Assembly (NCBI GenBank): GCA_030247885.1
Contig: JAPDRO010000025.1
Span: forward strand, 62,001 to 126,000
Direction: 5' to 3'
Source: Taxawa tesnikishii (nom. ined.)
Taxonomy: Eukaryota; Ascomycota; Dothideomycetes; Dothideales
DNA: 64,000 bases
The first letter of the stretch is position 1. Each line of letters opens with the position of its first letter. Positions 33,383-61,863 of this stretch are shown piece after piece. Under the pieces are notes generated by a model. That model worked only from the letters and a program-made list of their open reading frames with translations. It was not told the DNA's origin and did no database searches. The translations under genes and the position numbers were made by a program.

Positions 33383-33709
33383 TGCGCGAAGGATTGGCCT
33401 CTGGAGGCACGAACAACGCGGATGTATGGTGGTGGTGGTGGTGGTGGTGGTAGGAGAGGACGAGAAGTACTGGGTACATGGAACCCCGGGCTTCGAGGTT
33501 TAGATCGCGTCGCGCCGCAGCCACGCCAACAAATTGAACCCATTCTCGCGTTTGGCGCGTCGTTGCCGCGATCCGATGAAGCTCTAGCCACTGATAAGAT
33601 CGAGCGTCAAAAGTTCTCGACGAACTCTTGGCGTTGCCGAAACGCCGCAGATTCTCGAAGTAGAGAATATCCCGCAGGAATTTGTTCTGCATAACGAGCC
33701 ATACTCGCC
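33383..33709. other. Divergent CDT2/RRP5 promoter
   Basis: 327 bp shared by the two divergent starts. It holds a (GGT)8 microsatellite at 33428-33451. Confidence 0.6.
33428..33451. repeat. (GGT)8 microsatellite
   Basis: Eight GGT trinucleotides in the CDT2/RRP5 divergent promoter, about 50 bp from the CDT2 start codon. Confidence 0.9.
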
Positions 33710-36700
33710 ATGGCGCCTGTTAAAAGAAAAGCCACTGCCACAGAGAGGCCTGCGAAGCGATCCAAGAGCGATGATCCTGCGGTCAAGCACGAGAACACCA
33801 AAAGCGCAAAACCAGCAAACGGGTCTAAGAAAGGACCAAAGCCGGATAAGGACGACAACCAGGATCGCAAGCCTGTGAAGGCATCTCTTCTTCAGAGTGA
33901 GGAGCGCGCTTTCCCCAGAGGTGGTGCCAGTGTTTTAACACCACTTGAACACAAGCAAATCAAGCTTGAGGCGGAAAGAGATGTCCTATTCGAGCGATCC
34001 GGTCAGAAAAAGCCAAAATCAGACTTGTACAGCGATGATGAGCAGACTGGTGTCAGCGCCGAGACTACGCGACCGTCTAAGAAGCGCAGGAAGTCAGGAA
34101 AGGGCAGGACGGACGCTGATGCCAACGGCACGCCACAGGTCAAGATTCAAGGATTAAGCTACAAGGTGGGCATACCCTCTTACTATGCATTAATCGAGAT
34201 GTTGACGGATTACAGAACCTGTTGGTGGGTTCTATTGTTCTCGGCCAAGTCACGGCAATCACCTCCAAAGACGTCGCACTTGCGCTACCTAACAACCTGA
34301 TTGGATTCGTCCCGCTCACTGCAATTTCAGAAAGAGTCAACCAGAAGATCGAGACTCTACTTGCCGAAGATGAGACCGAGAAGGAGGGCGAAGTGTCTGA
34401 TGACGACGATGACCTGGATCTCAAGTCTCTGTTCCACATCGGCCAGTATCTGCGAGCCTGCGTCATGTCGACAGCTGAGGATTCCACGGTCAATGGATTG
34501 AGGAAGAGCAAGAAGCGCATCGAACTGTCCGTAGACCCAAGACAAGCAAACTCTGGTCTGGCTGCATCCGATGTCGTGGTCAACAACACAGTGCAGGCGT
34601 CCGTCAGGAGTGTGGAAGACCATGGGTTGGTTATGGATCTGGGCCTTGAGGATCCTTCCGTGAAGGGTTTCATGTCGAAGAAAGATTTCGGAAAAGGCCA
34701 GGATATAACACGCGTGCAGGAAGGCTCAGTACTGCTCTGCACGGTCACTGGTCTGACTTCGAACAAGGTGGTCAAGCTCGCAGCAGACACCACCAAGCTT
34801 GTCGGCGCGGCACAATATCTGTCCGAGGCGCCTACTGTGGACGCATTTTTGCCAGGCACAGCAGTCGAGCTTCTGGTGACCGAGTCCGGCCGCGGTGGTC
34901 TTGCCGGAAAGGTCATGGGCATGCTGGATGCGACAGCCGACCTTGTTCACTCTGGCGCTGGTGGCCGTGGCGAAGATATCAGCAAGACCCACAAGATTGG
35001 TTCCAAAGTAAAAGCTAGGATCATCAACACCTTCCCTTCTGCGGAGAACAAGAAGGTCGGTGTTTCACTCCTGGATCACGTTGTTGGATTGCAATCCGGA
35101 CCATCACTGGGAAAAGGCAAGACCACGCCTAAAGAGCTGCACTCATCTGAAATTATTGAAGAGTCGAAGGTGTTGCAAGTTGAACCTGCGATTGGTCTGT
35201 TCCTGGACGTTGGCGTTCCTGGACGCCCTGGATTTGCGCACATCTCCAGAATCTCGGACAAGAAGATTGAAACTCTATCAGAAACTGTCGGAGCGTACAA
35301 AGTCGGTTCCACGCATCGTGCGCGTGTCCTGAGTTACAATCCGGTTGATGGCATGTACAACGTTTCATTGGAGCAAAGGTTCTCGACCAACCCTTCCTCC
35401 GGATGGAGGACGTTGCAGTTGGCTCTGTTGTCAAGGGCAAAGTCAACAAGATCATCTTGGGCGCTAAGGGAGTCACGGGCGTTCTCGTTGATCTTGCAGA
35501 GGGCATCGATGCACTGGTGCCGGAAATACACATGGCCGACGTACATCTCCAACACCCAGAAAAGAAGTTCCGTGAGGGCTTCCCAGTCACTGCTCGCGTG
35601 CTCAGTGTGGACCTAGACAGGAGGCAAATTCGCCTTACCATGAAGAAGACACTGATCAACTCTGAGGCCCCAATATGGAAGAGTTATTCAGACATCGCAG
35701 TGGGCGATGAGTCTCTTGGTACCATCATCAACATCCTTCCAAAGGGTGCCGTAGTCCAATTCTACGGCTCAATCAGAGCATGGCTTCCGGTTTCTGAGAT
35801 GAGCGAGGCTTACATCCAGGATCCGTCTCAGCACTTCAGGCTTGGTCAAACAGTCAACGTCCACGCCATATCGGTGGATGCGGAAGCCGACGAACTCAAG
35901 GTTTCGTGCAAAGACCCATCTGCGTTTGGTGAAAGCCAACAGCAGGCATGGGATGCGCTCAAGAACGGCCAGCTTATCAACGCCACAGTGACTGAGAAGT
36001 CCGGTGAGACGGTCATGCTCGACATTGAAGGTTCGGATTTGAAGGCTGTCCTTCGTGTCACGCACCTTGTCGACGGTTCGCAGCAAAAGGCGCTGTCGGC
36101 GTTGAAGCAGATCAGAGTTGGGCAAAAGTTGTCCGATCTTGTTGCTATTGAAAAGCTTGACAGGAGACACCTCGTTGTCCTCAGCAACAAGCCAAGTCTT
36201 GTCAAAGCAGCTAAGGCTGGAACACTGATCTCGAGCTTCTCGGATGTGGTAGTTAAGCGAGAGGTCCACGGCTTTGTGCGAAGGGTCACTCCTGACGGTG
36301 TCTTTGTGCAGTTCGCTGGAGGAGTTGTTGGATATCTCCCAAAGACCGGAATCACCCTGGAGAGGACCGCCTTACCAGCCTTTGGTTTGCGGGCAGATCA
36401 GTCTATCGCCGCCACTGTCTTCTCCGTGGATCCAGCGCAGCAGAGATTCCTGTTAACCTTGAGAGAGGTTAAGCAAGAAGAACCAAAGGTTACAGCAGAA
36501 AAGCCCTCTATTGCAGGTGAAGCTGTCATCAACCCCGTGGATGAGGTGTCTTCCTCGATTGCCGACTACGCCTTCGGCAAGGAGACACAAGCTCGCATCG
36601 TCTCCGTCAAGGACACACAGCTGAACGTCCAGCTCGCCGACAACATCCAGGGTCGGATTGATGTTTCCGAGGTGTTCGACAATTGGGAAGATATCAAGGA

Positions 36701-39128
36701 CCGCAAACGCCCACTTCAAAGGTTCAAGCCGAAGCAGGCCCTTCCGGTCAGAATCCTTGGTATACATGATGCTCGCAATCACCGTTTCTTGCCGATCACC
36801 CATCGTCAAGCGCGCATTCCAGTCTACGAACTTACGGCGAAGAGCAAGGCTCAGCTGTCATCGGAGACGGATCTCCTCACTATGGATAAGCTTGAGGTCG
36901 GATCGTCATGGATTGCCTACGTCAACAACATCGATGACAAGTGCCTATGGGTGAACCTGTCGCCCAACGTTCGCGGCAGACTGGACGTAATGGATCTCAG
37001 CGAAGACGTTTCGCTTCTTCAAGATCTGCCAAAGAATTTTCCTGTTGGCTCAGCGATTCGTGTGCGCGTCAAGAACGTCGATGCATCCACGAACCGTCTG
37101 GACCTTACTGTCAAGACCAGCTCTGCTGAAGCCATGACTCTTCAGACCCTTACTAAGGGCGCTATTGTTCCTGGCAAGATCACAAAGGTCACCGAACGCA
37201 ACGTCATTGTAAAACTTAGCGATTCAGTCTCTGGCGCTGTCACCCTTACCGAACTTGCCGACGATTACGAGGAAGCTAACCCTACTACGCACTCGAAGGA
37301 TGACATCGTCCGCGTGTCCGTCGTTGATATTGATATCCCCAACAAGCGCGTATTTCTATCTCTGCGACCATCAAAGGTCTTGAGCTCTGCACTGCCGGTC
37401 GAAGACCCCCAAATCATAAGCCTGACACAGCTCAAGGTCAACACCGTGCTCCGCGGCTTCGTCAAGACCGTCACGGACAAGGGTGTAGTCGTCAATCTCG
37501 GCCCTCGCGTCGACGCCTTCGTGCGCGTCTCCGATCTGAGCGATGCATACATCAAAGACTGGAAGTCCGCATACCAAGTTGACCAGCTCGTCAAAGGCCG
37601 CATCCTCGCCGTCGACCCCGCGCTTAACCACGTGCAGATGAGCCTGAAGCAGAGCCATGTCGACAAGAATTACGTTCCTCCCGCAACCTTTGCGGATCTC
37701 AAGCCTGGCCAGATCGTCACTGGCAAGGTAAGGAAGGTCGAGGACTTTGGCGTTTTCATTGATGTGGACAACACCATTCCAAGGGTCAGTGGTTTGTGCC
37801 ATAGAAGCCAGATCGCGGATACCAAGGTTGATAACATCAAGAGCTTGTACGACGAGGGTGACCAGGTCAAGGCGAAGGTGCTGAGTGTGGATACGGAGAA
37901 GAAGCGCATTAGTTTCGGCCTCAAGGCATCGTACTTCAAGGACGCAGACGATGACGAGGAAATGGACGATGATGAGGAAGAGATTGACGGTTCCACCAAC
38001 GACGAAGCCTCAGAGGACGAGGATATGGACGGTGGTATTGATCTCTCTCGTCCGTGATGCCGAAGAGGACGAAGCGGACGCCTCTTCCGCCGACGAAATG
38101 GACATCGACGCTAGACCGACCACCGGTCTTAGCACCAGCGGTTTCGACTGGAGCGGCGCGGGCGCTCTGGATCAGGACCTCAAAGGTGCAGCCTCCGAGT
38201 CAGAAGCAGAGGCTGTACCTAAAAGAAGAAGCGTAGGGCTCAGATCCAGGAAGATCTCACTGGCGAGCTCGACGCGCATGGCCCTCGCTCCGTAGCTGAC
38301 TTCGAGCGGCTCTTGCTTACAAGTCCCAACGACGCGGCGTTATGGATTCAGTACATGGCCTTCCAATTGGGGCTTAGTGAGGTGGAGGCAGCGCGCGAGA
38401 TTGGACAAAGGGCGCTGAGAACGATCAACATGCGCGAGCAGGACGAGAAAAGGGACGTCTGGATCGCGCTACTCAACCTCGAAGTCTCATTCGGCGACGA
38501 CGAGAGAGTCGAACAGGTTTTCAAGGAGGCATGTCAAGTCCAAGACCCCCTCATCATGCACGAGCGCATGGCGTCCATCTACATCGACGCAGGTAAATTC
38601 GACGCCGCCGAAAAGGTCTTTGACAAAATGGCCAGTACGAAAGCGTTCCGTGCCAGTGGTGACATGTGGCTCAACCACGCCACTTTCCTCATGGAGAAGA
38701 TGGACAAGGCGCCCGCCGCGCGCGCCCTGCTGCCCAGAGCCATGCAGTCAGTGCTGCCAAATGAACACCGCCTCCTCACTGCCAAATTCGCGGCCCTGGA
38801 GTTCCGCACCAAGCACGGGGATCCCGAGCGCGGACGCACCATCTTCGAGGGTCTGGTCGCGGAGTGGCCGAAGTGGACGCAGGGCTGGGATATGTGGGTT
38901 GATCTGGAGAAGGGTCAGGCAGGTGAGGAGGCCAAGGAGAAGGTTAGGGCGTTGTATGAGAGGATGGCGAAGCAGAAGATGAAGAAGAGGAGGGCAAGGT
39001 TCGTCTTCAAGAAATGGCTTGAGTACGAAGAGGCCAGTGGTGATGCGAAGAGTGTGGAGAGGGTCAAGGCGATCGCTAAGGCGTATGTGGAAGGCATGAA
39101 GGAGGAGGCTGGGGGTGACGAAGAGTAA
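33710..39128 (+). CDS. RRP5: rRNA biogenesis protein RRP5 (three frame breaks)
   Basis: Exon 1 33710-34165, a 50-nt intron, then one long exon to 39128; about 1,790 residues, close to other fungal Rrp5. The start is 'MAPVKRKATATERPAKRSKS', a Lys-rich nucleolar leader. About a dozen S1 RNA-binding repeats follow ('GSIVLGQVTAITSKDVALAL', 'GSVVKGKVNKIILGAKGVTG', 'GQIVTGKVRKVEDFGVFIDV' and others), then an acidic Asp/Glu linker and C-terminal HAT/TPR helices ('WIQYMAFQLGLSEVEAAR', 'AAEKVFDKMASTKAFRASGD'). Rrp5 acts in both 18S and 5.8S/25S pre-rRNA processing in the nucleolus. Frame breaks: a missing A at 35375-35377, a one- or two-base change in the CT repeat 38043-38049, and a missing A at 38221-38224. 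With these, one frame runs through. The second and third breaks bracket the linker between the S1 and HAT parts. Confidence 0.92.
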
Positions 39129-41794: not shown

Positions 41795-44700
41795 ATGGCG
41801 AGCGACACTGATGTGGACGTGACCGAGGTGAACATGCGGGACGCGGATGCAGTTCAAGAAGAGGAGCGGCAATACAGCGGCCCTATAACAGAAGAAGACT
41901 TGGATGAAAAGTATCCCGACAGGCCGCACAACCACTCGCGAACTCTCCCGTTTCATGACCTCTTCCTTACTGTCTTCAACCCGCTCAATGACAACAAGAA
42001 GAAGCCTACGGGTCCCGTCACTGCACGTAAAAAGCAAGGCCCCCATGGACCAGCTAACCTCAGTCCTAACGAGATCCGGCGCTCCATTATTGAGCGATTC
42101 ATATCACGATGGCGCAAGGAAGTCGGCAACGACATATATCCTGCCTTCAGGCTCATTGTACCAGAAAAGATCGTGATCGAGCCATGTATGGTTTGAAGGA
42201 GAAGACCATCGGCAAATTGCTCGTCCGGGTGATGAAGATCGACAAGAACTCCGAAGACGGCTACAACCTCCTCAATTGGAAGCTGCCTGGAGTCCGGTCG
42301 GCGTCCGCCATGGCTGGTGACTTTGCCGGTCGCTGCTTCGAGGTCATCTCCAAACGACCCATGCGTACTACTGTTGGCAGGTTGACTATTGGTGAAGTGA
42401 ATGAAATGCTGGACAATCTGTCTGCTGCGCAAAAGAAGAGAACCAGCTTTTCGTCTTCGAGGAGTTCTACAAGAACATGAACGCGGAGGAGATGATGTGG
42501 TTGATCCGCATGATACTCCGTCAGATGAAGGTAGGGGCTACGGAAAAGACAATCTTCGACATCTGGCATCCGGATGCAGAAAACCTGTTCAATGTCTCAT
42601 CCAGTCTGCGCCGTGTTTGCTGGGAACTGCATGATCCGCAGGTCCGTCTCGAGGGAGATGATAGAGGCATAAACTTGATGCAGTGCTTTCAACCACAGTT
42701 GGCCGCTTTCCAGATGCACAATATGGAGAAAATGGTTGCTCGGATGAGTACTACTGAGGAAGATCCTGTCTTCTGGATAGAGGAGAAGCTGGATGGCGAG
42801 CGCATGCAGCTTCATATGGTCGAAGACAACAGCATTCCTGGAGGTAAACGCTTCGGTTTCTGGTCACGCAAGGCGAAAGATTACACCTTCCTCTACGGCA
42901 ATGGCTTCCAAGACGAGAACTCTGCACTGACAAGGCACGTCAAAGCTGCCTTTGATGAAGGCGTGCGCAACATCATCCTCGATGGCGAGATGATCACTTG
43001 GGATCCGGAGCAGGACGCAATGGTGCCTTTCGGTACGCTCAAGACTGCAGCTCTGGCAGAACAGCGGAATCCTTTCTCTACAGGAAACCGGCCACTTTAT
43101 CGCGTTTTCGATTGCCTTTATCTCAACGATGTCGACCTGACTAACTACACACTGCGCGACCGGTACAAGGCTCTCCAGCGTAGCATCAACTCCATCCATC
43201 GCCGCATCGAGGTCCACACTCACATCGAGGCAACGTCCGCCGCTGAGATCGAGCCGCTGCTGCGCCAAGTCGTTGCGGAAGCCTCAGAAGGCCTAGTCCT
43301 GAAGAACCCACGCTCAACCTACCGCCTCAACGAGCGCAAAGACGATTGGATGAAGGTGAAGCCCGAGTACATGACCGAATTCGGCGAAGCATTAGACTGC
43401 ATCGTGATCGGCGGGTATTACGGCCAGGGCAAGCGAGGCGGCAAACTGTCGAGCTTCATGTGCGGCCTACGGGTTGATCAGAACGCAGTCTCGCAGGGCG
43501 CCAATCCTCAGAAATGCTACTCATTCTTCAAAGTCGGCGGTGGCTTCAGCGCTGCCGATTACGCGGCGATCAGACATCACACCGACGGCAAGTGGCACGA
43601 TTGGAACGCAGACAAATCGCATACGGAGTACATGGAGCTCGGTGGCGGGGACCGACAGTTCGAGAAGCCGGATTGCTGGATCAAGCCCGAGGACTCTGTG
43701 GTCATAGAGGTGAAGGCTGCTGAGGTGCGGACGACGGAGGAGTTCAGGATGGGCTTCACGCTACGCTTCCCTAGATTCAAAAAGCTCCGCACTGATAAGG
43801 ACTGGAAGCAAGCGTTGTCTATCAATGAGTTCATCGAGCTGAAGCAGAAAGCGTACGCAGAAAAAGCAGAGAAGCAATTCAAGATTGACGATTCCAGACG
43901 TAAGAGACAACCTACGAAGCGGAGGAAAGAACTCGTGGTAGCAGGCACAGATGAAGTCGTCAAAACTCCGTACGCGGGACCACAAACAAAGGTTCTCGAG
44001 GGCTTGAATTTCTTTGTGATCACGGAAGGCCTCAAGCCGTGCAAGAAGAGCAAAGCTGAACTAGAACAGCTTATCAAGGCTAACGGCGGAGGGATTTTAC
44101 AAAGCGAGAAAGATCCAGATACGATTTGCATCGCGGAGAAGAAGTTGGTCAAAGTGGCGAGCCTCATCAAGCGTGGTGAACGCAACCTCATTAAGCCGAG
44201 TTGGCTTTTCGACTGTATCCAGCAAAACGAGCGCGATGCGGGAGGCCGAACTTCGTGCTGCCTTTTGAGCCGGAGCATATGTTTTTCGCCACGCAGAAGG
44301 ATGCTGACGAGTTCGCGCAGAATGTGGATGAGTATAATGATAGCTACGCAAGGGATGTCACGGCGGAGGAACTCGGACGCATTCTGGATTCCATGCCCAA
44401 AGTCGAGGAAGACGAAGATAACGAAATGGTTTGGAGCGAGCTGCGGGATAGGGGAGCGCTCGATGAGATGTTTGGGTGGATGTTCCGCGGCTTGAAAGTC
44501 CATATGATCGACGAGAATTCAGAAGACCTTGACATTGCCGCCGTGCGACGCATCCTTGTCTTTGCCGGAGCGGAAATCGCGACTTCGGAGCAGGAGAGTG
44601 GAGTTACACATATTGTGACGAAGGGTGACATCCGCAAGGCCGGAGAAGTGCGAAAAAGATGGCGAACAACTCCAGAGATGGAACACGATTTGCACGTGTG

Positions 44701-44855
44701 GTCACGATAGACTGGGTGAGGGATAGCTGGAAAGAGAGGACGAGATTGGATGAGGAAGGTGAGTGCATAGTGACGGCTGACGGGTCGCTGAGGGATGAAC
44801 ATCAAACGAGTAAGAAACGAGATGCTGACCTGAGGCAGGATACGCTCCAAAATGA
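41795..44855 (+). CDS. LIG4: DNA ligase IV (four frame breaks)
   Basis: Long exon 41795-44758, then an 80-nt intron (donor GTGAGT, acceptor GGCAG) and a short last exon 44839-44855 that ends the protein. Family marks: N-terminal 'FHDLFLTVFNPL', adenylation motif I 'EEKLDGERMQLH' with the catalytic Lys, 'ILDGEMITWDPEQD' (motif III area), 'EGLVLKNPRSTY', 'DDWMKVKPEY' (motif V), then two BRCT domains separated by the Xrcc4-binding linker. The enzyme seals double-strand breaks in non-homologous end joining with an XRCC4/Lif1 partner. Frame breaks, each consistent with one lost base: A4 at 42165-42168, A4 at 42431-42434 (or the AA just after), G3 at 44240-44242 and A5 at 44653-44657. Corrected length is about 990 residues, normal for the family. 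Confidence 0.93.
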
Positions 44856-45009
44856 TATTGTTGATGACCGGTACCCTACGTTGCTGGTGTCCTGCAGCGG
44901 ATCGGACCAGCTGCGCACTGATACTTGGGAAATCTCGCCCTTGAGCCGGCGTCAGTCGGTTAATTGACTGAACCGTTGAGAACCCCTCTGCTGACACTCT
45001 CAGGATCCA

Positions 45010-46139
45010 TCACTCAAGTCGCAAGATTCTTTTGGCGTTCCCACCCATTACCGCCTTCACGGTCTTCTCATCACCTCCTATTGCTCTCTTCACCGCTTCC
45101 GTATTCAGCTTCACGCTGAGCCACTCGCTTTCCCCTTCATCCAGCGGCGGGAAGAACGGATGGTCAGTACCTGTTCCAAAATCAGCGCAGGCACGACATT
45201 CGTAGATATGCAAGCGCAATGCGTACCAAACATCAACCTATCAGCGCCAGAAGCATCGATCGCAGCCTTCATACCCACATCGGCATAGATGACAGCGTCC
45301 AAATAGATGTTCTTCTTCAACACATCCCACACATTCCGTCTCCCCTCCAACTTCCCAAGCTCCTTCAAATGAGCATCATGCGCGATACAACTTTCAATCC
45401 GCCCTGCGAGAAACGGCAAAGTACCTCCACTATGCGCGATCAGCACATTCAGCTTATGAAACCGATCCCAGACCCCACTCAGTAGCATCCTCGTCACCGC
45501 AATCGTCGTCTCGAGCGGAAAGCCTAGAGCAAGCGGTAAGACGTGCCCGTAATCCGCAGCCAGAGGCCCATACAAGCTTGTCGGGAGTCCGTAATGCGGA
45601 TGCAAGAAGATCAACTGCCCGCACTCCTCCAACGCAGTGTATATCGGATCCAGCGCCGGATCGTCCAACCCGTTCCCCAGCCCCGACGTGCCCATGATGA
45701 CGCCGCGCATGTGCTTCAAAGTGCTCAATCGCCGGATCTCCGCCACCACTTCGTCACCGGAGGCGGACAACGGCAGCGTCCCGAACGCGTATAACCGCCC
45801 CTCATGCTCGCAGCACATTCTCTCCACATCGTCGTTCACTTTCCTCGCCGTGTCCGCCGCTTCGGAGGGCGGTAACCAGTCCAACCACGGGTTCGCGAGC
45901 GAGATTACGGAAATGTCGATGCCGTGGGCGTCCATGAAGGCGAGTTTCTCGCTAATTTCGCTGTATTCGGGGCCGATGGGCCGGCCACGAGAGGTCGAGG
46001 CTGTGTCTTCGGCGGGCAGGATCACGAGGCGGTCACCGGCCTGAGGATCAGTGAATATGTAGGGAACGGCGTTGCGGGAGCGGAGCAGGGATGTGAAGAC
46101 GGGCGGGTAGACGTGCGTGTGCACGTCGACGACAGGCAT
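45010..46139 (-). CDS. Isoorotate (5-carboxyuracil) decarboxylase, ACMSD-like amidohydrolase
   Basis: Two exons on the minus strand, 46139-45227 and 45170-45010; the 56-nt intron is phase 1 with donor GTACGC. 357 residues, no frame break. Amidohydrolase-2 metal ligands are visible: 'VDVHTHVYPP' (HxH), 'LIFLHPHYGLP' (His), 'VLIAHSGGTLPFLAGRIES' (His) and 'FGTDHPFFPP' (Asp). The blocks 'ISLANPWLDWL', 'GTSGLGNGLDDP', 'YGHVLPLALGFPLETTIAV' and 'YLDAVIY' closely resemble, from my knowledge of the family, fungal isoorotate decarboxylase, the last step of thymine salvage (5-carboxyuracil to uracil and CO2). The main alternative is another ACMSD-related decarboxylase. Its divergent neighbour looks like thymine dioxygenase, which supports the assignment. 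Confidence 0.8.
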
Positions 46140-46595
46140 TGTGACAATCGGTATGGAAATATGCTGCCGAGACCAAGCCCGGTGGTTGTTGTAATTTCAA
46201 ATGCACTTCCAGAAAATGGGCTTGGGGCTCAACCGTACAGCGGGCGCGATGGACGATTCTGTGGTCACTCTTTCTATTTCAGTCAGTCAGTGGAGCGCTC
46301 GGAGATAGATATCTAGGTCGCGGCCGTGGTACCTGGGAACGCCCCGCCATCAGGCGCCGTACAGATAAAGATAAGAAGATACCCCACCTATCAACAGTCT
46401 TCCCAATCCGGCAAGTCCTTCCAGCTGCCCATGAGGTGTCCTTCCGCTATTCGTGTAACGCATTGTCAACCACATGATCATGCAGCGGCATGCACGATAA
46501 AGACAACATATTTCTCGTATACCTTCCCTTCCAGAATTTCTCTTCCTTTTCTTCCACCAGTAAGCAGTCCTACCGCAGCACAACCTGCAACACGA
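46140..46595. other. Divergent promoter of the thymine-salvage pair
   Basis: 456 bp between the two divergent starts. It contains four HGATAR matches listed separately. Confidence 0.65.
46303..46393. promoter_or_regulatory. GATA-site cluster in the bidirectional promoter
   Basis: HGATAR matches at 46303-46308 (AGATAG), 46363-46368 (AGATAA), 46369-46374 (AGATAA) and 46388-46393 (TGATAG on the minus strand); a near match AGATAC lies at 46377-46382. AreA/NIT2-type nitrogen regulators bind such clusters. Placement between two genes that recover a pyrimidine base fits nitrogen-dependent control (inference). Confidence 0.5.
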
Positions 46596-47838
46596 ATGGC
46601 TTCAGAAACCGTCGCCGTATCATCCGACAACCTCAGTATTCCTGTAGTCTAGCCCAGACACCTATGACAAAGTACGGACGACTGATGATGCGTTCAGCTA
46701 ATCGACTTCTCCGCTTTCCATTCCAACGACACAGACCTGCGCCACCGCACTGCACAAGCCGTCCTCGACGGCTTTCAACGCGCGGGTTTCATCTACCTTC
46801 GTAACCACGGAATCTCCAAATCGGTCGTCGATACGGCGTTCCAGCACAGCGCGGCCTTCTTCAAGCGACCAAAGGAGCAAAAGATGCACTTGCCTGGACC
46901 ACACCGCGCGCGAACCGCGGCTACGTCTCTCAAGGCCGCGAGAAAACTACCGATGCCGTCGACGCCGATGAGATCGAAAAGCTGAGGTTAGAGCAGGGAC
47001 AGGATCTCAAGGAGAGTATGGAGATTGGGAGAGAGGGGAAGAGGGTTTGCCGAACCATTGGCCTGATAAGTTTGATGAGGAGGGAGAGAGTTCAAGAGAG
47101 TCATGTCGGATTTCTTTTCCAGGTGTAAGGAATTGCATATCGAAGTGATGCGCGCAATTGCGGTGGGATTGCGCATTGAGGAGAGCTGGTTCGATGGGTT
47201 TTGCGACAAGGGCGATAATACTCTGCGCTTGTTGCATTATCCGGCTGTGAGGAGAGAAGTTTGGGAGAGGAATCCGAACCAGGTTCGGGCGGGGGCGCAT
47301 TCGGACTACGGTATGCATCTTCATTCCCAGCTCGCCTGCTCTGGCTTTTGATCTATCGGAGCGGTGGCAGTTTTCCCGGTGGTCAGACTGTTGCAGCGGA
47401 CTGACGGATCTGCAGGTTCCATCACCCTCCTATTCCAGGACAACAGAGGCGGCCTGCAAGTCCTGAGCCCGAAGAATACATACGTGGATGCTACACCCAT
47501 TGAAGACACGATCGTGGTGAATGCGGGTGATTTGCTCGCAAGATGGAGCAACGATACCATCAAGAGCACCAAGCACCGCGTCGTCGAACCCCGGTGAAGC
47601 CGGAGCATGATGTGCATCCGGCTAGGTACAGCATTGCGTACTTTTGCAACCCAAACTTTGAGAGGTGCGTCCTTTTAGTCAGGAGTGTCCTGGGAGGAGG
47701 CTGTATGCTGACGGCCGATGCGATGGTGATAGATTCATTGATGCCATTCCTGGAACCTTTAATGAAGCAAGAGGGAAGAAATACCCCGGAATCAACAGTG
47801 GAGAGTATCTGGAGCAAAGACTGGCTGCCACTTACTGA
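46596..47838 (+). CDS. 2-oxoglutarate/Fe(II) dioxygenase, probable thymine dioxygenase (four frame breaks)
   Basis: Four exons: 46596-46646, 46698-47310, 47416-47664 and 47733-47838; about 340 residues. IPNS-type jelly roll: 'AGFIYLRNHGISKSVVDTAF', 'ELHIEVMRAIAVGL', 'AHSDYGSITLLFQDNRGGLQ' (HxD ligands), 'NAGDLLARWSNDTIKSTKH' (third His) and 'ARYSIAYFCNPN' (R..S for 2-oxoglutarate). The ending 'QRLAATY' and the 'RGYVSQGREK' block match, from family knowledge, fungal thymine 7-hydroxylase and its near relatives. That enzyme oxidises thymine three times to 5-carboxyuracil. Breaks, each one base short: 46893-46895, G4 at 47035-47038, TT at 47091-47092 and C4 at 47589-47592. The first intron's donor GTCTAG is weak. 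The divergent neighbour is the matching decarboxylase; a different 2-OG enzyme of the same group remains possible. Confidence 0.75.
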
Positions 47839-48613
47839 ATGTCTGACGGTCGTACGGTGGTTTCACGCGAAAACTACCCGTCCTTGCTACGGTGCTACAA
47901 GATCATTCTCGCGAACAAACGAAACCTATGTTGCTGTGTTATCAGTTGTCTGTCGCTCGTTTTCGTCTGGACTGGGCGTAACGCAGGAAGTAGGAACGAG
48001 CGGTGAGCGGCAGACGGCAGACTGCAGTCGGAATCATGACTCGAGATGCTCTGATAAGATTTCCCCCAAGACGCTAGCCAACCTCGTCATCCCAAGAATT
48101 GCCGAGTCTCTCAACCCTGAGCCCACATCAACACACTACTCACCGCACAGAGGACAGTTCGCCCAGTCAAATATATAGAATTGTTTGATTACTCGACGGT
48201 CTCTCGTACCTGGCAGGATTGGTAGCCTCGATTTGAGCAAAGAGTGTCTGCCATACAATTCGTTCCAATGGCAGGTTACAACGAATCTGTTGGCCCGTTT
48301 CCGTTCTTCCACTCTCATCCACAACCACTCATGCCCCTCTTGCACTAACACGTTCCAGCCGTTCCACCGTTACAGCACGGCTTTTTCATGATCTTGTATT
48401 CGTGACTCGCGGATTCGTGCTCCAAATTAAAATGGACCGCAGTAAGACCGTTTCAGTGGCTAACGATAAGCTTGAAGTTTACTTGGCTCGACTACCTACT
48501 CTACAAAAAGAATGTCCTGGACCACTTGCAGTGCTGTCCTGAGTTCTGCTTAATCTGACACTTCGAGGACACTCCCATACTGAACGCAACTTAACAATCT
48601 GAAACCCGCAAAG
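47839..48613. other. Intergenic
   Basis: 775 bp between two plus-strand genes. No supported gene; short frames only. Confidence 0.6.
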
Positions 48614-49269
48614 ATGAGATTCACCGCCCTTTTCTTTTCCGCTGCGGCTTATCTCGCCGTCAACGTAGCAGCACAATGTAACCAAACCGGAGCCGCACCA
48701 GGACAGAACTTTATCGGCAGCACACCATCTCAGCGCCATGTGATCGACTCACAACAAGCCAATGCTATCATCTCCGCTGCCGCTGCTGAAGCATCCTCGG
48801 CCAATCTTCCCTCCAACATTGCCGTCACAGATCCCTCGGGCAACCTGGTTGCTTTCCTCAAGACCGACAACGCCTTCCCAGGATCCACCGATATCAGCAT
48901 CAGGAAAGCCAAGACCGTCGGCCTGTTCAACGGCATCTACACGACCGGCGCGCTGTACAACATCACGCAACCGGGAACCGCGCTTTACAGTGCCCAATAC
49001 ACGAACGGCGGGCTCGTGGTTTTCGGCGGCGGCCTGCCGGTCTATGTGAACGGGTAAGCAGCATGTGGTGTTGGAAGTGTTTGTTCCAGCATTAACAGCG
49101 TAGCAGATACTTCATCGGCGCGGTCGGCGTCTCCGGCGGCACGGCAGAGCAGGATGTCCAGGTCGCTACAGCTGGTGTGAACGCGATCGGACCAGTGCCG
49201 GATTGGGTCGTTACTGAGAACCCCTTCAGTCTTGTTACTGGACAGGCTGCCTGTGGTTCTTCCGCTTGA
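48614..49269 (+). CDS. Secreted GlcG/HbpS-like (DUF336) protein
   Basis: Two exons, 48614-49053 and 49107-49269, with a 53-nt phase-2 intron (donor GTAAGC). 200 residues, no frame break. A clear signal peptide, 'MRFTALFFSAAAYLAVNVAA', should be cleaved near residue 21. The mature part is a GlcG/HbpS fold: 'NIAVTDPSGNLVAFLKTDNA', 'SIRKAKTVGLF', 'LVVFGGGLPVYV' and 'GAVGVSGGTAEQDVQVATAG'. Family members in bacteria bind heme or small ligands; fungal secreted forms are widespread and uncharacterised. One sequon (NITQ) suggests glycosylation and several Cys could form a disulfide. Role outside the cell unknown. Confidence 0.87.
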
Positions 49270-60048: not shown

Positions 60049-61863
60049 ATGCCGACATGGATGCAGCTATGCGCGCTGCTGCTGATGCAGCTCCTGGCCG
60101 TGAGCGCAGCTGAAGTTCAGATAGTACGTAAACCACGCATAAGACACTGCTGTAACGTGTTCTGACACTACCCCCTGCAGGACCAAAAAGAACAGAACCG
60201 GCAACAATGCTCGGGCATGTACAGTCGCAAGAGCTGGGGAGGCAGCGTCGACCCCTTCATCCTCACCAAGTTCGTCAAGCCGGACAACATCCCCGAAGAC
60301 CAAGATCCCGTCGTATCGTTAGTCCTGTTCGAATGGAGGGATAAGGACTTTGTGGGCAAGCCCGTCGCCCCGGACTCGCTGGACGTTAGTTACGTGAAAG
60401 ACGGAGGGAAGATACAAGGCTGATACCAGCACACAGCGAGCCTACATCTGTGACGCCGCCAACATCGAAGCGAAGCTCTGCAATGCCACCGAAGAGGGCA
60501 GTTTCATCCTCTCCGACAACTCCGACAGCTCGCGCCTCCACATCATCTCACAAGCCATCCATCTCAAGGACCCGCCCGCGATAAACTACCCCATCAGGTC
60601 GACGGGCTACTACTGCGTCGGCACCTACGGTTACAGCGCAGACGAGTACAAGGCCGTCGTCGAATTCCGCAATGCCTACGGCGAGCTGCCCGCCGCCCAG
60701 ATCGCCAAACTGCCCTTCTACGGCGCCCTGACCATCGTATACGCCCTCATGAGCGCCGGCTGGGGTTCCTATATTTCCAGAACCGGCGCGACATCCTGCC
60801 AGTGCAGAACTACATCACCGCCATCCTCGTCTTCCTCGTCGTCGAGATCTTCATGACCTGGCTCTTCTACGACTTCCAGAACCGCCACGGCCTGAACACG
60901 GGCGCCAAGGCACTGCTCATTGTCGTGAGCGTGCTGTCGGCGGGCAGGAATTCCTTCTCCTTCTTCTTGTTGTTGATCGTGTGCATGGGCTACGGCGTCG
61001 TGAAGCCGAGTCTGGGCAAGACCATGGTCGTGGTCCGATGGCTCGCTATCACGCACTTTGTCTTCGGCGTCATCTACGCCATCGCCTCGCTCTCGCTGAC
61101 TCCGGAATCCGCCGGCCCGCTCGTGCTGCTCGTCGTTCTCCCCCTCGCCGGCACGCTTACGGCTTTCTACGTCTGGACACTGAATAGCTTGAACGCGACA
61201 ATGAAGGATCTAGTCGAGCGCAAACAGACGGTGAAAGCTGGCATGTACCGCAAGCTCTGGTGGTGCATCCTGCTCTCCATCGTCGTCATCTTCGTCTTCT
61301 TCTTCGTGAATTCATGGACCTTTGCGGGCCAGAGCGATGAGGACTTCGTGCCCAACCACTGGTCCACTCGGTGGTTCATCCTGGATGGCTGGCTCAACCT
61401 GGTCTATCTGGCCGACGTGGCGTTCGTGGCTTGGCTCTGGAGGCCGACGGCCAACAACCGCCGCTTCGCCATGAGTGATGAGGTACGTTTTGCATTCCCT
61501 CCCTACCACCAGCCCCACCAAATGGAAGAGGCCAGGCGTGCTCACTGACGCAAACAGATCGCACAAGACGACGAGGGCTTCGAGATCGCCTCCGTACGCA
61601 ACAGCTTCGAGCTCGACGACGACGAACTCGGCACGCCCAAACCGCCTGCATACGATGCGCCCCGCGGCAGCAATCGCGACGCTTCGAGCAACAATCGTGA
61701 CGCGAGTCCCTTGCCCGCGCCTATACCGACCAAGCCGACGCCGCTGCCGAGGGAGAGTCTGGATGGGGAGACCATCTTTGCCGTGGGCGACGAGGGCGAC
61801 AGGTGGAGCGACAGCGAAGGGGATGACGAGGAACGGAAGGGGTTGACGGGGAAGAGGGATTGA
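60049..61863 (+). CDS. PTM1: PTM1/GPR107-type seven-transmembrane protein (one frame break)
   Basis: Four exons: 60049-60123, 60181-60384, 60437-61482 and 61558-61863. About 543 residues after adding one G to the G4 run at 60762-60765 in exon 3. Signal peptide 'MPTWMQLCALLLMQLLAVSA'; a lumenal domain with 'CSGMYSRKSWGGSVDPFI', 'YICDAANIEAKLC' and 'GYYCVGTYGY' (Cys pairs of the Ptm1 ectodomain); then seven helices ('FYGALTIVYALM', 'NYITAILVFLVVEIFMTWLF', 'FSFFLLLIVCMGYGVVKPSL' with the GYGVVKP signature, 'VVVRWLAITHFVFGVIY', 'WWCILLSIVVIFVFFFVNSW') and an acidic cytosolic tail. The family sits in Golgi and vesicle membranes. The 52-nt second intron has donor GTTAGT and branch CTGAT; it explains what might otherwise look like a frameshift. 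Stop 61861-61863. Confidence 0.87.

Follow-up and report, generated by a model that had tools for sequence, protein, structure and literature searches.

Do two genes that lie side by side on a contig of the fungus Taxawa tesnikishii form a thymine-salvage pair, and would both of them still work? The first-pass annotation of this DNA had read them as a thymine dioxygenase and an isoorotate decarboxylase that together would turn thymine into uracil. The window, by which we mean the whole stretch of 64,000 nucleotides that was analyzed, corresponds to positions 62001-126000 of contig C18, and the genome searched comprises 34 contigs and 29.4 Mb. The chemistry of the route is established elsewhere, and PMC4787775 describes it as first found in Neurospora crassa; activity at the present locus is predicted. 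Thymine-7-hydroxylase (T7H), an Fe(II)/2-oxoglutarate (2-OG) dioxygenase, would carry out three successive oxidations of the thymine methyl group, through 5-hydroxymethyluracil and 5-formyluracil to 5-carboxyuracil. Isoorotate decarboxylase (IDCase), a divalent-metal enzyme of the amidohydrolase fold, would then strip the carboxyl group from 5-carboxyuracil to give uracil. That uracil could be converted to UMP by uracil phosphoribosyltransferase (UPRTase) or be degraded for nitrogen.

We are highly confident that the locus is a fungal thymine-salvage pair, made up of T7H and IDCase genes that are probably switched on together. The family membership of both genes, their layout and their active-site residues are established here. 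The features that bear on this reading are as follows.

42405..44967, plus strand: DNA ligase IV (LIG4) gene, a neighbor outside the pathway, with Pfam DNA_ligase_A_M and BRCT_2 in its first frame
45010..46139, minus strand: isoorotate (uracil-5-carboxylate) decarboxylase gene, 357 amino acids, exons 46139..45227 and 45170..45010, Pfam Amidohydro_2 (6e-30)
45171..45226, minus strand: decarboxylase intron of 56 nt, GT...AG, whose removal joins ...RLMFG to TDHPFF in a conserved metal-ligand stretch
46140..46595, no strand: shared divergent intergenic stretch, 456 bp between both ATGs, a putative two-way promoter
46596..47838, plus strand: thymine-7-hydroxylase gene, exons about 46596-46643, 46698-47310, 47416-47664 and 47733-47838
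46886..47597, plus strand: region in which the frame steps four times by one base (near 46892, 47038, 47085 and 47591), the successive pieces adjoining in different frames too closely for an intron to fit between them
48584..49054, plus strand: exon of an HbpS-like protein, a neighbor, Pfam PF03928 (9.3e-22)

Identity of the two genes

The first-pass annotation placed and named both genes correctly. The minus-strand gene opens with an ATG at 46139, and its TGA stop codon ends at 45010; for the plus-strand gene, the ATG is at 46596 and the end of the TGA at 47838. A search of the minus-strand protein against solved structures returned 39 distinct sequences at E values of up to 0.001. The top five distinct PDB sequences were all uracil-5-carboxylate decarboxylases, with scores of 450 to 429 bits and a best E value of 5.8e-134, far beyond chance. 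The next family, ACMSD, reached 97 bits, which leaves the IDCases well ahead of other amidohydrolase-2 decarboxylases. Identity is 56% (199/354) to the Cordyceps militaris enzyme 4lak and 59% (209/354) to 4hjw, which we take to be the Metarhizium anisopliae enzyme. The protein is thus alike over its full length to the IDCases of these two fungi (PDB 4lak-4lao, 4hk5-7 and 4hjw); it differs from them in being nine residues shorter near position 45 and in single-residue gaps, none of which affects a listed active-site residue. The N. crassa counterpart is uc-7 (NCU06417).

All 11 of the active-site residues listed for IDCase in PMC6305744 are kept. In C. militaris numbering these are the metal ligands His12, His14, His195, and Asp323, the carboxylate-binding His251 and Arg262, and the substrate residues Arg68, Asn98, Phe222, Phe326, and Phe327. 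Position 323 is Asp in the window protein and Asn in the 4lak chain; 4lam, given in PMC6305744 as the Asp323Asn mutant, has the same chain sequence as 4lak. The fold and the metal ligands would be the same in an amidohydrolase-fold decarboxylase of another kind, whether of the ACMSD, gamma-resorcylate, 5-carboxyvanillate, or 2,3-dihydroxybenzoate type, and Pfam yields only Amidohydro_2 for the window protein. We nevertheless regard such an assignment as scarcely credible and reject it on the margin in bit score, with the other types at 97 bits or less, and on the retention of Arg68 and Asn98. These two residues are named in PMC6305744 as important for substrate specificity, and their positions are described there as empty or otherwise filled in gamma-resorcylate and 5-carboxyvanillate decarboxylases. 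No other decarboxylase relative in the genome exceeds 29% identity, and no second close copy was found; Amidohydro_2 has 14 matches there, the window's own included.

The plus-strand gene has introns at 46644-46697, about 47311-47415, and 47665-47732, with GT-AG borders on the first and third; the second was placed by eye on the sequence. The gene was searched as separate pieces, six of the eight being used in five queries, with the first exon and one piece of 16 amino acids left out. N. crassa T7H (PDB 5c3o-5c3s) was the best PDB match for every one of the five queries, at E values of 4.9e-13, 3e-11, 1.1e-28, 1.2e-26, and 1.4e-20, all far beyond chance. Pooled over the five, 196 of 297 aligned positions (66%) are identical. 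The HxD...H core and the RLAATY ending on which the first-pass annotation had relied are both present, the latter shared with the N. crassa enzyme. An unrelated 2-OG oxygenase was rejected on this identity and on the uniform best match. Neither such an enzyme nor an ACMSD-type decarboxylase, the outcomes that the annotation had named as fatal to its reading, came out ahead at this locus; thymine dioxygenase and uracil-5-carboxylate decarboxylase lead by wide margins.

The 15 active-site residues given for T7H in the active-site section of PMC4787775 are likewise all kept. They comprise the HxD...H iron triad, the 2-OG residues, and the thymine residues, including Asn87, Glu122, Tyr217, Phe292, and Asn294. 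An unchanging offset of two places all 15, and none of the eight other offsets that were tried recovers more than 3. Retention of these residues is not in itself proof of the substrate, because a paralogue on the same contig keeps all of those read by eye except Asn294; they would mark the class of oxygenase more than its substrate, and sequence identity is the stronger argument for T7H. This caution bears on a related 2-OG oxygenase with another substrate, such as HxnY of nicotinate catabolism, that stood beside the decarboxylase by chance. PMC9304392 describes T7H as the closest structural homologue of HxnY, with iron, 2-OG, and ring-stacking residues common to both, and most of the 15 residues are features of the class. 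Against this, the window protein is 66% identical to a biochemically proven T7H and keeps Asn294, the adjoining gene encodes the decarboxylase that uses the T7H product, and the lesser paralogue sits elsewhere on the contig. We therefore consider a different substrate very improbable and retain the assignment as T7H.

The paralogue (L033, G000:C18:357834-358046) is likewise a T7H-like 2-OG oxygenase. It has His in place of Asn294 and might be HxnY-like. It was the single other place in the genome, at C18:357834, that was found with one 76-amino-acid piece of the hydroxylase, at 42% identity over 68 amino acids, and that query returned no second close T7H. PF03171 has 11 matches in the genome, the window's own included.

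The interrupted hydroxylase frame

The gene for the decarboxylase needs just one ordinary intron, and it has no frame steps. The first-pass annotation spoke of corrected proteins for both genes, a word that for the hydroxylase masked four places at which the frame shifts. At each of these the sequence has one base fewer than expected, so that, unlike N. crassa T7H, the gene is interrupted four times and is not a single whole frame apart from its introns in this assembly. These steps leave the assignment to the T7H family intact, and they weaken the case for a working gene.

Similar steps are found in other genes. In the neighboring LIG4, the frame seems, when read by eye, to make two gapless one-base shifts, the first near 44240 and the second near 44680; the second frame gives a DNA_ligase_IV match below the cutoff (20.1 of 22.1 bits), and the third gives no family. 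LIG4 (42405-44967) and possibly an RRP5-like and a PTM1-like gene (33695-39125 and 60398-61545) lie in overlapping or abutting frames, and such frames in genes of the window suggest many one-base insertions or deletions in the assembly. As controls we examined 20 HSP70 rows and 24 chaperonin rows from the same genome. Two pairs of neighboring matches abut without a gap, with the profile continuing in another frame; the other gaps, of at least 28 bases, were taken for introns. One pair is in L047 (near 2590), presumably a CCT-type chaperonin, and the other is in L039 (reverse strand), which we take to be an SSZ1-like HSP70. A living fungus is expected to keep its chaperonin gene whole. Since genes that have to function also appear to carry one-base steps, we favor assembly error over decay, and the steps in the hydroxylase are probably a fault of the assembly.

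Decay would mean that the hydroxylase is a pseudogene, that the decarboxylase survives alone, and that the conversion of thymine to uracil by this route has been lost. Four steps in about 1 kb, a higher density than in the chaperone genes examined, next to a decarboxylase with none, would fit such a history, as would the lack of a second close T7H in the genome, as judged with the 76-amino-acid query. However, all four steps are of one kind; apart from them the pieces stay open, at 66% identity, and the gene retains GT-AG intron borders and 15 of 15 residues; gapless steps are also present in the two chaperone genes and, by eye, twice in LIG4. Loss of the gene is thus unlikely in our judgment, and on the preferred reading, that of an assembly fault, both proteins are presumably made and active in T. 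tesnikishii. Depletion of homopolymers was considered as a mark of assembly error. Runs of C or G of at least six bases are scarce, with 2 in the window versus about 39 in shuffled sequence and 13 versus about 71 in the other loci from this genome, but the bacterial loci described below show the same scarcity (46 versus about 419).

Linkage, putative shared promoter, and genome context

The physical linkage noted at the outset is real, the two genes standing head to head with 456 bp between their starts (46140-46595). T7H-IDCase linkage is not new: PMC6305744, citing Smiley et al. (2005), places the decarboxylase gene downstream of that for the hydroxylase in N. crassa and Aspergillus nidulans. 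The present locus is like theirs in that the two genes adjoin. Compared with that published description, the head-to-head layout may differ from both. The pair is thus already known as a kind, and it is ordinary apart from this layout and a hydroxylase frame that was probably damaged in sequencing. Its value is that of one more clean case of a known two-gene salvage route, with a head-to-head layout that would lend itself to testing a two-way promoter. The two enzymes also draw broader interest as models, of oxidation of the TET type and of a DNA decarboxylase that is itself hypothetical, and this is in print already (PMC4787775 and PMC6305744).

The 456-bp stretch contains five HGATAR sites, at 46303, 46363, 46369, 46388, and 46495, versus an expectation of 0.79 from the window-wide frequency and a mean of 1.17 in dinucleotide shuffles. 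Five or more sites were reached in 12 of 2,000 such shuffles and in 6 of 1,271 overlapping windows of the same size, those over this stretch included. The excess is a hint of nitrogen control, obtained with a motif that was picked after the sequence had been seen. Both genes would be transcribed away from the shared stretch and are probably coregulated, perhaps by a GATA factor under nitrogen limitation. Under sulfur starvation in N. crassa, uc-7 is reported among the induced genes together with the UPRTase gene uc-8 (PMC8550094).

The genes that would act on uracil are elsewhere in the genome. UPRTase-family matches are on contigs C4, C5, and C30, and a DUF1688 gene is on C23; none is beside the pair. 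DUF1688 is presumably the URC4 family of uracil breakdown. Pfam scans of a hand-picked 39 of the 92 window open reading frames of at least 150 amino acids, plus one shorter frame, gave no other pyrimidine gene near the pair. The HbpS-like neighbor has an apparent signal peptide by eye and no known pyrimidine link. In the same scans, the window also yielded ATG16, an RRP5-like protein, and HET and fungal rhodopsin domains; together with the introns and LIG4, we read these as the signature of a filamentous ascomycete.

Bacterial relatives of the decarboxylase

In the prokaryote genomes scanned, 29 relatives of the decarboxylase were found. Thirteen of these are alphaproteobacterial (L048-L060, from Reyranella, Acetobacteraceae, and others), are 42 to 48% identical to the window protein, and each keep 11 of the 11 IDCase residues listed in PMC6305744. 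Twelve others (L061-L068, L072-L074, and L076) keep Arg68 and Asn98, with the last Phe different or unaligned and, in L068, the first two His residues also unaligned. Both Arg68 and Asn98 are missing from L069-L071, and Asn98 is missing from L075.

One Acetobacteraceae metagenome-assembled genome has an apparent operon (L054:5989-9967) of a decarboxylase relative, an FAD oxidoreductase, a ureidoglycolate-lyase-family protein, and a 2-OG oxygenase. Two genes separate the oxygenase from the decarboxylase relative that it follows. When the 29 bacterial loci, several of which have short flanks, were searched by tblastn with the five T7H pieces (E values of up to 0.01), matches were obtained only in L054 and, weakly, at the end of L052 (E value of 0.002). 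The best solved relatives of the L054 oxygenase are of the ethylene/succinate-forming type (259 bits), followed by an iron/ascorbate oxidoreductase (220 bits) and T7H (162 bits), and by eye it has Asp at the Asn294 position. On these grounds L054 was rejected as a bacterial T7H-IDCase pair. No such pair is claimed, because the oxygenase is closer to other enzymes and because better relatives of it lie on other contigs of the eight genomes searched, with two to ten matches in each.

Near the 13 alphaproteobacterial decarboxylases, an ABC permease-type gene is found at 12 loci, an NMT1-type binding protein at 8, and an FAD oxidoreductase at 7; the contig of L050 stops at the decarboxylase. These counts are loose, because they come from a simple gene call and from single-linkage families, each named after one or two of its members, and no random loci served as a baseline. 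It is possible, and we put it forward tentatively, that the 13 proteins are bacterial IDCases encoded in a gene cluster for the uptake and breakdown of 5-substituted pyrimidines, and that the fungal enzyme shares their origin. By titles and abstract openings, a bacterial IDCase was not apparent in the papers searched. If these relatives do act on 5-carboxyuracil, the chemistry would have a wider range of use. In a tree of 38 rows, the three fungal decarboxylases stand together (100/99) and are grouped with the 13 alphaproteobacterial ones at support that is not strong (92/76), with a warning of long branches from the program.
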